NCBI GenBank assembly: GCA_024277255.1
Contig: JAJRVQ010000127.1
Coordinates: 1 to 64,000, forward strand
Source of the DNA: Acidobacteriota bacterium
Lineage (GTDB): Bacteria > Acidobacteriota > Thermoanaerobaculia > Multivoradales > SZUA-115
DNA: 64,000 bases
Direction of reading: 5' to 3'
Shown: positions 2,433 to 8,064 of the stretch, piece by piece
How the letters are laid out: each line of letters begins with the position of its first letter
How positions within the stretch are numbered: position 1 is the first letter of the stretch
Made by a program: the position numbers and the translations under genes
Notes under the pieces: model-generated
What the model was told of the DNA's origin: nothing
Databases searched by the model: none
The model's input: only the letters and a program-made list of their open reading frames with translations

Positions 2433-4124
2433 TCAGATCTCTCTGGCGTCGACCAAACGCAAGACCGGCTCGCCGCCACGATAGTCGTCGCGCTCCAGAA
2501 ACCCTAGTGTCTCAAATCTACCGGCCAGTTTCTCAGCCCGATCCGACCAGCCCCAGCCGAGGAGGCGTAGCGGCGACCCGTCGTCGCCCAAGGCCATGGC
2601 GGAGAGGTGGCCGTTGCCGAACAGGCGGGGTGATCCTTGGAGGTGCAAGGGACCTACCAGGAGCATCGGCTGCGGGTTGCCCTCACCGTGAGGTTCCAGA
2701 TTTCGCATGGCGCTGAGCAACGAGCGGTTGGCTTCGCGAGGTGAGAGTTCCAGCTCATATTGATAGCGCTTGCGTAGCAGTTCGCCCGGCCACTCCTCGG
2801 CTTTCTCTTCCCAGCGCCGGCGCACCGTTTCGAGTTGCGTGCGGCTGAGCGTCATGCCGATCGCCTGTGCGTGCCCACCGAAGCGCAGGTAGTCCTGCTT
2901 CCAGGCGGCGAGGAACCGATGCAGATCGATACCCGCAACGCTGCGCCCTGAACCGGTGGCGGTATCGGTTTCGGTATCGAGGCTGAGGAGAATGGTCGGC
3001 CGGCAAAGTTCCCGCGCCAACCGACCGGCGGCGATGCCGACGACTCCCCGGTGCCATCCTTCGTTCCAGGCGACGGCGATCGGTGGCAGCGAGTCACGGG
3101 CCTCGATGGTGGCTCGTGCCTCTTCGACCACTTTGGCCTCTTCCGCTTGCCGATCCCGGTTGGACTGATCCAACTCGGCGGCGAGAGCTTCCGCCTGTTG
3201 GTGGTCGGTGGCCAGAAGTAGCTCCAGCGCTCGATCGGGGCTCGCCAGCCGGCCCGCCGCGTTGATCCGTGGCCCCAGGCGGAAGCCGACATCGGAGGCG
3301 GTGAGAGGTGGCTTGACTCCGGCCTTCTTCATCAAGGCCCTGAGCCCTAGTGAGCGAGTCTGTCCGAGTGCCTTGAGACCGAGGGCGGCGATCACCCGAT
3401 TCTCGCCGCGCAGGGGGACCATGTCGGCGATGGTGCCCAGGCAGGCGATTCGCAACAGCTGGTGGATGGGAAGGCTGCGGCCACACCGATCGGCGAAGGC
3501 CAGGGCAAGTTTGAGCGCCAGGCCGACGCCGGCCAGATCGGGAAAGGGATAGGTGCAATCTTCCTGGCGCGGATTGATCAGCAAGGCGCCGGCCGGTAGC
3601 TGGTCGCCGGGGATGTGATGGTCGGTGATCAGCACGTCGATGCCCGCCTCGGCGGCGCGGTCGACCGCGGCCATCGAGGAGACACCGCAGTCGACGGTGA
3701 CGATCACCGAGGCTCCAACTTCTTGGGCCCGATCGACGTGCACCGGTTGAAAGCCGTAGCCCTCGAGCAATCGGTGCGGCAGAATCGGCTCCGCTGTCAG
3801 GCCGCAGGCGCGTAGCACTCCCAGCAGCAGGGCGGTCGCGGTGACGCCGTCGACATCATAGTCGCCCACGACGACGACCGCTTCCCGTTGCTGCAGGGCC
3901 CGGTGCAGCCGCTCGACCGCCTGCGGTAGGCCGGCGAGCAGGTGCGGATCGTGAAGCTGGTCCAGCGCCGGGGTGAGGAAGCGTTGGACGGCGGCGGAGT
4001 CTTCGACGCCACGCCGAGCCAGGAGCGCCGGAAAGAAGGCCGGGAGGCCGTCACAGCCGAGCTGCGCGGCGACTTCAGGAACCGGCGCGCAATGCCATTC
4101 GGCCGCGGTTGTGGAGAAGGTCAA
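2433..4124 (-). CDS. recJ: Single-stranded-DNA-specific 5'-3' exonuclease RecJ
   Basis: RecJ degrades single-stranded DNA 5' to 3' in RecF-pathway recombination, mismatch repair and base-excision repair. The DHH-family signatures are all present: GDYDVDGVTAT (about residues 87-97), VTVDCGVSS, ITDHHIPGD, GPRINAAGR, the DHHA1 part GWHRGVVGIAAGRLA, and GGHAQAIGM. I chose a TTG start at 4124 that overlaps the accA stop (TTGA) with GAGGA just upstream; this gives 563 residues, the usual RecJ length. The open frame continues upstream to 4379, but that extra part lies inside accA and is Arg/Pro-rich shadow sequence. The C-terminal OB-like region is present and ends at LVDAREI. Confidence 0.95.
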   Translation of the reverse strand: MTFSTTAAEWHCAPVPEVAAQLGCDGLPAFFPALLARRGVEDSAAVQRFLTPALDQLHDPHLLAGLPQAVERLHRALQQREAVVVVGDYDVDGVTATALLLGVLRACGLTAEPILPHRLLEGYGFQPVHVDRAQEVGASVIVTVDCGVSSMAAVDRAAEAGIDVLITDHHIPGDQLPAGALLINPRQEDCTYPFPDLAGVGLALKLALAFADRCGRSLPIHQLLRIACLGTIADMVPLRGENRVIAALGLKALGQTRSLGLRALMKKAGVKPPLTASDVGFRLGPRINAAGRLASPDRALELLLATDHQQAEALAAELDQSNRDRQAEEAKVVEEARATIEARDSLPPIAVAWNEGWHRGVVGIAAGRLARELCRPTILLSLDTETDTATGSGRSVAGIDLHRFLAAWKQDYLRFGGHAQAIGMTLSRTQLETVRRRWEEKAEEWPGELLRKRYQYELELSPREANRSLLSAMRNLEPHGEGNPQPMLLVGPLHLQGSPRLFGNGHLSAMALGDDGSPLRLLGWGWSDRAEKLAGRFETLGFLERDDYRGGEPVLRLVDAREI

Positions 4125-5074
4125 CGTTCCTCGAAAGCACCGAGGGCGCGGAACTTGGCGTAGCGGTTGGCGAGCAAGGTGTCGGCATCGAGCGGGTCTA
4201 ACTCGCTGAGGCTCTGCTCGATCACTTCGCCGACTCGCTGGCAGGTCAGCTGCGGGTCGCTGTGGGCGCCGCCGAGAGGTTCGGGGATGACCGAGTCGAC
4301 GACGCCCAGTTTGATCAGATCCGGTGCGGTCAGGCGTAGCGCCTCGGCGGCCTCCGCCTTGCGGCTCTGGTCTTTCCAAAGGATGGCGGCGCAGCCCTCG
4401 GGCGAGATCACCGAGTAGGTCGAATACTCCAGCATGTAGACGCGATCACCGATCCCCAGGGCCAGGGCTCCCCCGCTGCCGCCTTCACCGGTGATGGTGA
4501 CGACGATCGGCACCCGCAGTGAGGCCATCTCGATCAGGTTGCGGGCGATGGCTTCGGCCTGGCCGCGCTCTTCGGCGCCGATACCGGGATAGGCGCCGGG
4601 GGTGTCGATGAAGGTGAGTACCGGCATGGAGAATTTCTCCGCCAGTTTCATCACCCGCAGCGCTTTGCGATAGCCCTCGGGCCGCGGTTGGCCGAAGTTG
4701 CGGTGGATGCGAGATTTGGTGGTGCGCCCTTTCTGGTGGCCGATGACGGCGACCGATCGATCTCGGAAGCTGGCGAAGCCGGCGACGATGGCCGGATCGT
4801 CGCCAAATCGGCGATCGCCGTGGATTTCGACCCACTCCTCCATCAGGTGGTCGATGTAGTCGAGCGCGTAGGGTCTGCCGGCGTGGCGAGCGACGAGGGT
4901 CTTCTGCCAGCGGTTGAGGTTGCCGTAGACCTCGGCGGTCTGTTTGGTCAGCGTGGCGCGGAGTTTTTCGAGTTCCTTGGAGTGGTCGCTACCCTCGGGG
5001 TAGCCCTCCAGTTCCTCGATGCGGCGGCGCAGTTCGACGAGCGGTTCTTCAAAGGCGTTGTCAGCTAGGACCAT
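4121..5074 (-). CDS. accA: Acetyl-CoA carboxylase carboxyltransferase subunit alpha
   Basis: AccA and AccD together move the carboxyl group from biotin-carrier protein to acetyl-CoA, the first committed step of fatty acid synthesis in the cytoplasm. The sequence carries the AccA hallmarks EIHGDRRFGDDPAIVAGFA, GHQKGRTTKSRIHRNFG, PVLTFIDTPGAYPGIGAEE and GEGGSGGALALGIGDRVYML. With the ATG at 5074 it is 317 residues, matching the family (about 319). In-frame ATGs at 5092 and 5110 exist but none has a good ribosome site. The stop overlaps the proposed TTG of recJ. No accD is in the window. Its promoter must lie in the repeat-filled gap upstream. Confidence 0.95.
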   Translation of the reverse strand: MVLADNAFEEPLVELRRRIEELEGYPEGSDHSKELEKLRATLTKQTAEVYGNLNRWQKTLVARHAGRPYALDYIDHLMEEWVEIHGDRRFGDDPAIVAGFASFRDRSVAVIGHQKGRTTKSRIHRNFGQPRPEGYRKALRVMKLAEKFSMPVLTFIDTPGAYPGIGAEERGQAEAIARNLIEMASLRVPIVVTITGEGGSGGALALGIGDRVYMLEYSTYSVISPEGCAAILWKDQSRKAEAAEALRLTAPDLIKLGVVDSVIPEPLGGAHSDPQLTCQRVGEVIEQSLSELDPLDADTLLANRYAKFRALGAFEER

Positions 5075-5125
5075 ACTGCGGGAACCTAACATCAATGGGG
5101 GGGGCGTCAAAGGGGTTGGCCGAGC

Positions 5126-5317
5126 CGGTCTCTGCCGCCAAGTGGCCGGGCGGCCGCGTGGGCAGGATGGTTGCCCTGCGCGTCGGCCCGCTCCGGGCGC
5201 CCGCTGAACTCGCCGCTTCGCGGCTCAAACAGCAGCGGTCGCTTTTCCTCCGCGCGCCGATCCGTGCCCTCGGCTGGCCAGTGCCCGCAGCCTAAGGCCA
5301 CTTGGCGACAGAGACCG
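5126..5317. repeat. 192-bp element with 22-bp terminal inverted repeats (MITE-like)
   Basis: The left arm at 5126-5147 reads CGGTCTCTGCCGCCAAGTGG (20 of 22 bases shown); the right arm at 5296-5317 is its reverse complement with one mismatch. The 148 bases between have no gene. The size, the long terminal inverted repeats and the lack of coding capacity fit a miniature inverted-repeat element mobilised in trans, but I see no clear target-site duplication, so a large structured RNA or an older remnant remains possible. Confidence 0.55.
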
Positions 5318-5342
5318 ACTCTAGGGTGGTGGGTGTTTGACG

Positions 5343-5538
5343 CCTCGCGTCTCGCTTTGCTCGACTCTCGGCTCTGTCCTGCTCCAGGAATCGAGATCTC
5401 GCCGCCTCGCGTCTCGCTTCGCTCGACTCTCGGCTATGTCCTGCTCCAGAAATCGAGCCTTCGCCGCTTCGCGTCTCGCTTCGCTCGACTCTCGGCACGA
5501 TCCTGCTTCCACCATCGAGCCTTCGCCGCTTCGCGTCT
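5343..5538. repeat. 62-bp tandem repeat array, about 3.2 copies
   Basis: Units begin at 5343, 5405 and 5467 with a partial fourth at 5529, an exact 62-base period. Each unit starts with CCTCGCGTCTCGCTTCGCTC or a close variant and ends in ATCGAG plus TCGCCG. Units 1 and 2 are nearly identical apart from a few substitutions; unit 3 diverges in its second half. Because the unit length is not a multiple of three, it is not a protein repeat. Adjacent copies abut directly, with no spacers. Confidence 0.85.
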
Positions 5539-5564
5539 GTTATTGCTGATCTTGACGCCGTCCC

Positions 5565-5588
5565 GTAGGGGCGCAATTCATTGCGCCC
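5565..5588. repeat. Short palindrome (GGGCGCAAT..ATTGCGCCC)
   Basis: Two perfectly complementary 9-base arms at 5569-5577 and 5580-5588 lie 41 bases past the priA stop and are preceded by GTAG. The text resembles short dispersed palindromes seen between genes in many bacterial genomes. It could end priA transcription or be a REP-type element; there is no T-tract on the minus strand, so I do not call it a classical terminator. Confidence 0.5.
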
Positions 5589-5628
5589 GCGCCGGCGGAA
5601 CGCACGACCCCCGCCGCCCCGGGCCGTC

Positions 5629-8064
5629 CTACAGGAGGTGGTAGGGGTCTACGTCGATGGTGAGATCATAGGAGGTTTTTTGGGGGATGACGGCTCTTAG
5701 GAGCTGGTGGAGGTTCTTGCCGGAGGTTCCTCTGAGGAGTAACTGGAAGCGCCAGCGGTTTCTTAGCTTTTCTAGGGGGGCGGGGGCGGGGCCGGTGATT
5801 CTTAGGGCACGGGCTAGGGGGTGCTGTTGGAGTTGTTGGGCGAGTTGGGCCATTTTCTGTTGGGCTTTGTCGCGTTTGGCGTCTTGGACCAGGAGTTGGA
5901 CCATGCGGCTGTACGGAGGGTAGTGGAAGGCCTGGCGGAAGCGCATTTCTTGTTGGGCGAAGGCGGAGTCGTCGTGGTTGAGGGCGGCTTGGATGGCGTA
6001 GTGGTCGGGGTGGTAGGTCTGGATGACGACTTTGCCGGGCCGTTTGCCTCGGCCGGCTCGGCCGGCGAGTTGGGTGAGGAGGTTGTAGGTCTTCTCCACC
6101 GCTCTGAAGTCGGGGAAGCCCAGGTAGGTGTCGGCGGCGAGAACGGCGGTGAGGGCGACTTTGGGGAAGTGATGGCCTTTGGAGACCATTTGGGTGCCGA
6201 TCAGGATGTCGACTTCGCCTTGGCCGAATCTCTCCAGGACGGCGGCGGCGCCGCCGGGGCGGCGGACGGTGTCGCGGTCGAGGACGGCGAGTCTCGCCTG
6301 CGGGAAGAGTTCGCGGACCTGTTCTTCGACTCTTTCGGTGCCGGCTCCGATGGGCTCCAGGGCGCTCTCGCCGCAGGCGTGGCAGGTTTGGGGGACGGGG
6401 CGGGTGGAGCCGCAGTAGTGGCAGACGAGGATCTTCCGGCGGCGGTGGAAGGTTCTCGGCAGGCCGCAGGCGTCGCATTTCTGGTCTTCGCCGCAGGCGC
6501 GGCAGAGGAGGATGGGCGAGTAGCCTCGGCGGTTTCTGAGCAGGATGATCTGATCCTTGGCTTCCAAGGCCAGGGTCACTTCGCTGCACAGCCGCTGGGA
6601 GAAGGTGATGTCGCCGGGTCTGCGGCTCGATTTGGGCTCCCGGCGCAGGTCGACGAGGATTCCCTCCGGCAGTTTCCCCTGCCCCGCTCTCTGGGTCAGT
6701 TCGAGCCGGGTCAGTCTGCCCCGCTGCACGTTGTGGCGGGTCTCCAGGCTGGGGGTCGCGGAGATGAGCAGGGTGACCGCCCGGCTGTCGCGACCACGGA
6801 CCAGCGCGAGGTCGCGGCCGTTGTAGTGCGGTGAGATGTCCTGCTTGTAGGAGGAGTCCTGCTCTTCGTCGACCACCAACAAACCGAGTTCTTTGAGCGG
6901 CGCGAAGAGGGCCGAGCGGGGGCCGAGGACGACGTGGGCGCTGCCCTGGCGAACCCGTTCCCATTCCTGGTGGCGCTCGTTGGTGCTCATCGCCGAGTGG
7001 AGGATCGCCAGCTGATCGCCGAAGCGCCGGCGGGCCTGCTGGGCCAGGGCCGGCACCAGGGCGATCTCGGGAACCAGGAGGATCGACGAGCGGCCCAGGG
7101 CGAGGGCGTGGGCGGCGGCGCGCAGGTAGACCTCGGTCTTGCCCGAACCGGTGATGCCGGCGAGCAGGAAGCCGGCAGGGAAAGCCGCTCCCTGTGCGGC
7201 CTGGTCGAGCGCGCCGGTGATCGCATCGACAGCCACCCGTTGGTCCTGGCGCAGAACGATCTTCGCCGCCTCGCTGTGGGGGCTCAGCTGGTGCCGATCG
7301 AGACCGATTCGTTCGATCTGGGTGAAGCTGCGCAGCAGTTCCAGCTTGACCAGCCGGCGGACGACGGCCGGCGTGCAGCCGACGGCGGCGGTGACGCCGG
7401 CGACCGAGTCGGGCCGGCCGAGGGCGGCCAGATACTCGATCACCGCCCGTCCTTTGACCGAGCGTCCCGCCTTCCCCATCGTCTCTTCAAGCTCGGCGCC
7501 AGGGGGCAGCTCGACCGCGTTGGAGTAGCGGGCGCCGCGCCGCCGGCGCTCGCCGACCACGGCCCGGCCCTCCTCCGCCAGCCGGTCGAGCAGGTCGGCG
7601 AGGTCGGGCAAGCCGGTGGCGCGCTGAAGCTGCGCCACTTTCACTCGCCCCTTGGCGCGCAGGAATTCGACCACCTGGCGCTCCTTCTCGGAGCGGGGAG
7701 GCGCCAGCGCTCCGGCGTCGGTCAGCCAGACCTTGCGAACTCCCCAGGGCGGCAGGTCGGCCGGCAAGATCGAGCGCAATACCTCGCCCAGCGGTGCCAG
7801 GTAGTAGTCCGCGGCAAAGCGGGCCAGTTGCAGCAGATCGCCGGTCACCACCGGCTCGCGGTCGACCACCTCGTCGAGATCCCGCACCCGGATGTGGGCC
7901 GGAGCTTCGGCCGGCTTGCCGACGATGACGCCGATCACCCGCTGCTTGCCGACCCGCACGCGCACCCGCGAGCCGATGGCGGCGAGGGACTCGAAGGGCT
8001 CCGGGACCGAATAGAGGAGCGGATCCGGCAGCGGCAGCGGTACGGCGACGGAGACGTAGGACAC
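5629..8064 (-). CDS. priA: Primosomal replication restart helicase PriA
   Basis: PriA recognises stalled or repaired forks and reloads the replisome with DnaB. The 811-residue protein has the family layout: N-terminal DNA-binding region (SVAVPLPLPDPLLYSVP), winged-helix region, then the helicase with Walker A GITGSGKTEVYLRA, DEEQ box LLVVDEEQDSSYKQD, SATPSLET, the zinc-binding insertion with eight cysteines (CRACGEDQKCDACG, CHYCGS, CHACGE), and motif VI QLAGRAGRGKRPG. Motif II reads DEEQ rather than the more usual DEEH. The start is GTG at 8064; no strong ribosome site is seen. The small zinc-ribbon gene at 8087-8353 lies 22 bp upstream on the same strand. Confidence 0.95.
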   Translation of the reverse strand: MSYVSVAVPLPLPDPLLYSVPEPFESLAAIGSRVRVRVGKQRVIGVIVGKPAEAPAHIRVRDLDEVVDREPVVTGDLLQLARFAADYYLAPLGEVLRSILPADLPPWGVRKVWLTDAGALAPPRSEKERQVVEFLRAKGRVKVAQLQRATGLPDLADLLDRLAEEGRAVVGERRRRGARYSNAVELPPGAELEETMGKAGRSVKGRAVIEYLAALGRPDSVAGVTAAVGCTPAVVRRLVKLELLRSFTQIERIGLDRHQLSPHSEAAKIVLRQDQRVAVDAITGALDQAAQGAAFPAGFLLAGITGSGKTEVYLRAAAHALALGRSSILLVPEIALVPALAQQARRRFGDQLAILHSAMSTNERHQEWERVRQGSAHVVLGPRSALFAPLKELGLLVVDEEQDSSYKQDISPHYNGRDLALVRGRDSRAVTLLISATPSLETRHNVQRGRLTRLELTQRAGQGKLPEGILVDLRREPKSSRRPGDITFSQRLCSEVTLALEAKDQIILLRNRRGYSPILLCRACGEDQKCDACGLPRTFHRRRKILVCHYCGSTRPVPQTCHACGESALEPIGAGTERVEEQVRELFPQARLAVLDRDTVRRPGGAAAVLERFGQGEVDILIGTQMVSKGHHFPKVALTAVLAADTYLGFPDFRAVEKTYNLLTQLAGRAGRGKRPGKVVIQTYHPDHYAIQAALNHDDSAFAQQEMRFRQAFHYPPYSRMVQLLVQDAKRDKAQQKMAQLAQQLQQHPLARALRITGPAPAPLEKLRNRWRFQLLLRGTSGKNLHQLLRAVIPQKTSYDLTIDVDPYHLL

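Follow-up and report, generated by a model that had tools for sequence, protein, structure and literature searches.

A lineage-specific family of ~190-nt foldback repeats in Acidobacteriota, with a copy between priA and accA, may be recognised as folded single-stranded DNA

REPs, among the systems closest to the element described here, measure 20-40 bp or 21-65 nt and carry a tetranucleotide foot, according to two papers (PMC3733652, PMC6006769). The same papers describe 'atypical secondary structures' of the class 3 TnpAY1 found in Acidobacteria and Planctomycetes, place these structures and the TIR families at the flanks of their transposase genes, and give ~600 copies of such foldback repeats in Solibacter (PMC3733652, PMC6006769). 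We analysed a window of 64,000 nucleotides (the whole stretch of DNA under study) from an Acidobacteriota bacterium, in which a foldback segment lies between priA and accA. We give an even chance to the reading that this segment belongs to a lineage-specific, non-autonomous, REP-like family of ~190 nt that is recognised as folded single-stranded DNA.

The initial annotation had described a gene-free segment between priA and accA, bounded by 22-base inverted repeats with one mismatch, as a possible MITE or structured element. We observed these repeats in the sequence (5126-5147 and 5296-5317), and a repeat search extended them to 26 nt at 92% complementarity (Table 1). A codon-usage caller placed no gene between accA (4121-5074, minus strand) and priA (5629-8064, minus strand); a mechanical listing gives open reading frames that run across the segment (5171-5644, plus; 5292-5576, minus). 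The location was likewise confirmed, the minus-strand 3' end of the element lying just upstream of the TTGACG at 5110-5105. The DNA fold of positions 5120-5323 has an energy of -75.5 kcal/mol (z -6.61) for the minus strand and -65.7 kcal/mol (z -4.83) for the plus strand, and on neither strand was any of 200 shuffles as good. The same intergenic region also contains, at 5565-5589, GTAGGGGCGCAATTCATTGCGCCCG, a palindrome that bears a GTAG tag as canonical REPs do, and similar copies were found near other elements.

Table 1 Features of the priA-accA intergenic region (positions in the window)
Feature	Position	Strand	Basis
Whole foldback element including outer arms	5122..5321	- (folding strand)	Repeat search, fold; covariance-model match 5128-5315 minus, 167.8 bits
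Basal stem 5' arm (minus-strand sense), copy-specific	5296..5321	-	Repeat search, arm-swap comparison
Basal stem 3' arm, copy-specific; ends 11 nt before TTGACG	5122..5147	-	Repeat search, arm-swap comparison
Conserved core with nested stems; apical hairpin TGTTTGA...GAGTT, C(GAA)G loop	5148..5295	-	Alignment, fold, loop tally
Second repeat family: three direct copies, 62-bp spacing (79-nt overlapping copies)	5336..5538	+	Repeat search, genome matches
accA promoter-like boxes TTGACG - 16 nt - TAGGTT	5083..5110	-	Sequence, relatives; read by eye

We compared the source genome (G000) with genomes of the same genus (G001), the same family (G002) and the same order (G017), and with a second genome from the genus of G017 (G009). 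A DNA search of the source genome returned 37 matches, some of which are pieces of one copy. From the 34 copies extracted, 31 were aligned to build a covariance model and three were left out. The model found 35 matches in G000, 46 in G001 and 27 in G017, and none in G002 or G009. The segment is therefore one member of a repeat family with many copies in its own genome, in keeping with the mobile element that the initial annotation had considered. Full-length, insert-free matches in G000 span 183-191 nt, with one weak match of 173 nt. The assembly has a completeness of 96.5% and a contamination of 8%, so that a handful of the copies may come from other organisms. Longer matches of 242-278 bp were also seen (G000:C170:2592-2869, C107:39850-40091, C110:73442-73685, C41:4430-4673 and C47:140-381); those on C170 and C41 have another foldback repeat at the tip, and those on C107, C110 and C47 are alike in length. 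G017 holds tandem direct copies (C2:41885-42613 and C10:10722-11121) and divergent inverted pairs (C58:195-735 and C3:32628-33132), as described for REP dimers.

Among 297 genomes drawn from the phylum the element was found only in its own, in a scan that is a weak test with eight candidates scored per genome. In a pattern scan of genome contigs, 21 of the 23 stretches came from Acidobacteria bacterium SZUA-115, and the other matches from Nonomuraea and Bacillota. No distant DNA matches were found in plasmids, and the acidobacterial core pattern did not occur in viral contigs. Literature searches with the tip motif as letters and by topic gave no description of the hairpin family among the matches listed.

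The gap between priA and accA measures 554 bp in G000 and, in G001, 560 bp by called genes or 524 bp by the start criterion. Four syntenic relatives have gaps of 117 bp (G002), 71 bp (G003), 113 bp (G008) and 67 bp (G010), each too short to leave room for the element; the covariance model was run thoroughly on G002 among these four. The segment is thus an insertion relative to these element-free sites, as the initial annotation had supposed. A comparison that is rough, since the called lengths of the flanking gene are unequal, gives 588 bp for an element-bearing intergenic region of G017 and 53 bp for its counterpart in G009. The initial annotation had placed the segment in the promoter region of accA, where an insertion could affect fatty acid synthesis; the gene's promoter-like boxes stand unbroken on the downstream side of the element. 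Similar boxes occur in relatives that lack it; read by eye, TTGACG-16/18-TAGKTT lies upstream of accA in G000, G001, G002 and G003, and TTGACG in G008. The adjoining 62-bp repeat family has 29 matches in the genome, often beside the hairpin; some of them lie where the hairpin has no match, on other contigs or at other positions, which blurs the limits of the inserted unit. Insertion of the accA copy and its neighbouring 62-bp repeats between priA and the promoter of accA would date to an ancestor of the genus. As we read the neighbouring genes and flank alignments, eight of 14 G000 copies compared occupy sites clearly common to G000 and G001, and a ninth probably does, so that many copies are old; the copies at shared sites mostly differ in arm subfamily. 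At two pairs of loci (G000:C126/G001:C192 and G000:C42/G001:C262) genes were seen by eye to correspond on one side of the copy and to differ on the other, a pattern that would arise if rearrangement breakpoints fell at the copies.

RNAalifold on the aligned copies predicted 38 pairs, 25 of them with two-sided changes. With one isolated pair omitted, 37 pairs were counted, 25 showing two-sided compensatory changes and 95.7% of cells being paired. Each of the six helices contains at least one pair with two-sided changes. The covariation score was 0.403; shuffled alignments gave 0.149 and slid ones no more than 0.114. Sequences that are related may score above shuffles even when they have no structure, but the pair-count and type-count measures were not reached in 500 shuffles either. 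The suggestion of a structured element is thus supported both by a fold that beats shuffles and by strong covariation in the alignment. Altogether 99 copies were placed among genes, including 42 of the 46 G001 matches and 22 of the 27 G017 matches; 86 of the 99 were folded, 85 were used for the arms, and ten lack the tip motif.

The outer arms are complementary within a copy and differ between copies. The longest exact complementary run between flanks averaged 11.3 nt for a copy's own arms and 6.3 nt for arms swapped within a genome (n = 85 copies), and runs of at least 9 nt occurred in 56 of the 85 copies compared to 16% of swaps. In G001, the copy orthologous to the accA one bears another arm, ~30 nt long and fully paired, and at G000:C146/G001:C421, where the arms are orthologous, one G-C pair has become T-A. 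These observations bear on two alternatives. A classical MITE of a DDE transposon would be interspersed, non-coding, inserted relative to relatives and, at ~190 bp, bounded by terminal inverted repeats, much as we see here; its terminal repeats would also be fixed, however, and these arms are not common to the copies, nor did a transposase recur among the called neighbouring proteins. We consider a MITE very unlikely, and of the 'possible MITE or structured element' only the second half stands. The other alternative is that the copies are non-functional palindromes whose arms are kept complementary by quasipalindrome correction, that is, hairpin-templated repair, with no need for structural selection. 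Arms that are often near-perfect but private, like that of the G001 accA copy, are what such repair would leave behind. Correction should erase internal mismatches and loops, however, and these, including TGTYTGA...GAGTT, are conserved across copies. We regard this explanation as improbable. Stems that vary from copy to copy and still match themselves also occur in a further, double-hairpin repeat (GGGG...CCCC TC, an AAAAA/TTTTT stem, CACCCC) at L140, L155, L151, L127 and others, which may be another instance of private arms.

Copies lie between genes and are placed in a preferred orientation. In G000 none of 35 copies overlaps a called gene; the 3' end lies within 40 bp of the stop codon of a convergent gene in 20 of 35 and of a start in 2 of 35, and of the 32 5' ends with a neighbour none is that close to a gene. 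In G001, one of 42 copies overlaps a gene, and the corresponding counts are 10/38 (stop), 1/38 (start) and 1/32 (5' ends); in G017 they are 3/21, 0/21 and 0/19. Stop-codon proximity is therefore strong in G000 alone among the three. In the 20 close G000 cases the strand that folds lies antisense to the adjoining convergent gene. The accA copy is an exception, with its 3' end facing the accA start. Integron attC sites fold from the bottom strand, have variable arms and lie next to stop codons, and a comparable hairpin recombination site would explain the position after stop codons in G000, the antisense folded strand, and arms that vary and yet pair. Against this, the neighbours at the compared sites are orthologues of the congener's genes rather than cassettes, and attC R boxes were not seen at the base (by eye, against the consensus). 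A site of this type seems to us the most far-fetched of the readings.

The strand that corresponds to the window minus strand gave the more stable fold in 70 of 86 copies. On it, 59 G.T cells were counted vs 10 A.C cells, or 36 vs 10 without one pair that is usually T.G. The 42 distinct tips comprise 26 three-base GNA loops, 9 GNNA loops and 7 others, and 41 of them are closed by C-G; in seven of the nine GNNA loops the third base is a pyrimidine (GNYA, not GNRA). C(GNA)G and C(GNNA)G are very stable DNA loops, and the GCGAAGC hairpin is extraordinarily stable. The apical loops are thus mostly of the DNA rather than the RNA type, which favours folded DNA without proving it. A structured RNA, transcribed as a 3' UTR, sRNA or leader and acting as RNA, would also be expected to show covarying nested stems, conserved internal loops and a preferred orientation beside genes. 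However, besides the GNA/GNYA loops, the antisense placement in the 20 close G000 cases and the patchy presence across genomes speak against it, as does a consensus scan of 4950-5700 that found no promoter-like or terminator-like site, a crude scan that missed the accA boxes too. Nothing scored above the Rfam gathering threshold in window positions 4800-5700 or in six loci (three with the element and three viral), which rules against a known Rfam RNA in the scanned stretches. We judge a structured RNA to be unlikely, if the most serious competitor.

A search for a partner enzyme gave ordinary genes and unlinked candidates. Y1 transposase genes occur in genomes with the element (three in G000, three in G001, two in G017) and without it (three in G002, four in G009). 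No covariance-model match (E up to 1) lay in any of the 15 Y1 loci of these five genomes, and a Y1 transposase as the adjacent partner was rejected. BLAST at these loci gave short partial matches alone, the best 32 nt at 84%, and no exact flanking repeats longer than 11 nt were found at six Y1 genes; a Y1 protein was extracted at 14 of the 15 loci. A Y1 enzyme is possible, but one unlinked to the element. The largest recurrent cluster of neighbours comprised five proteins at four loci, and five proteins from the three largest clusters were ABC transporters, sigma factors and an aldehyde dehydrogenase, so that a recurrent neighbour gene was also rejected as the partner.

The tip motif, TGTYTGAGCGNAGCGAGTT, was found in 87 viral-contig stretches compared to one for a reversed control, a further point against hairpin-templated repair. 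Eighty of the 87 were listed and used, and with many near-duplicates they represent 26 distinct contexts. Viral flanks pair at 8.3 of 14 positions with themselves and at 6.6 of 14 when swapped, and pairing reaches 11 in 4 of the 26 contexts vs 0.2% of swaps; about half of the contexts have no clear hairpin. Some adjoining genes look by eye like phage structural genes. At L272, L286, L298, L300, L305, L314 and L325 (contigs of 9-14 kb), a shared upstream sequence ends in the tip motif and the downstream sequence differs, a pattern expected if the motif lay at a junction or at an integration end.

Because TGTYTGA(GNA hairpin)GAGTT also caps private-arm hairpins in some phage contigs of other bacteria, it would be a shared recognition signal if the family belonged to an undescribed class of single-stranded-DNA elements. 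The arms of such elements would match the insertion site, either through entry of the element into the loop of a gene's own terminator hairpin or with one arm serving as a guide that pairs with the flank or being a copy of it. We find this rather doubtful. An empty site with the same stem, as terminator-loop insertion would leave, was not found among the sequence matches examined, which were repeat copies, weak hits, two flanking stretches that stop at contig ends before the sites, and one element-free region too diverged to judge.

If the family is instead REP-like and recognised as folded DNA, the acting form would be the window minus strand as single-stranded DNA, folded into a long, imperfect hairpin that has a conserved core and, at its apex, a hairpin capped by GNA. 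An HUH-type nuclease (Y1, TnpAREP-like) or another single-strand-specific protein may recognise the fold and spread the element, in G000 mostly to sites directly after stop codons. REP-like elements could then far exceed the described sizes and keep private, self-matching arms, which would bear on site choice by single-strand transposases. The strong base-pair covariation would then probably reflect DNA rather than RNA folding and bear on how covariation is read. With orthologous sites that differ in their arms, the family is also a test case for hairpin-templated repair versus selection.

With integron attC sites the family shares an imperfect hairpin, variable arms, a position next to stop codons and a folded bottom strand; unlike in attC, conservation lies in the core and tip rather than at the base, and the neighbours are ordinary conserved genes. 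Set against the TIR families of TIRYT genes and class 3 TnpAY1 as the two papers cited above describe them, the family agrees in its occurrence in Acidobacteria, its repeated foldback DNA and its high copy number in some genomes, and differs in having no link to a transposase gene. From REPs it differs in its ~190-nt length, its private arms and the absence of a copy beside a Y1 gene, and no constant tetranucleotide (GTAG/GGAG-type foot) was noticed by eye at the 5' base among the copies listed. In conclusion, the hairpin family falls outside the REPs on length and transposase-gene linkage and outside the MITEs on shared ends. It resembles REP/BIME/REPIN systems with TnpAREP (RAYT), as described in the same papers (PMC3733652, PMC6006769), in being intergenic, multicopy, palindromic and lineage-specific, with tandem and inverted pairs in G017 and Y1 transposase genes in the genome.
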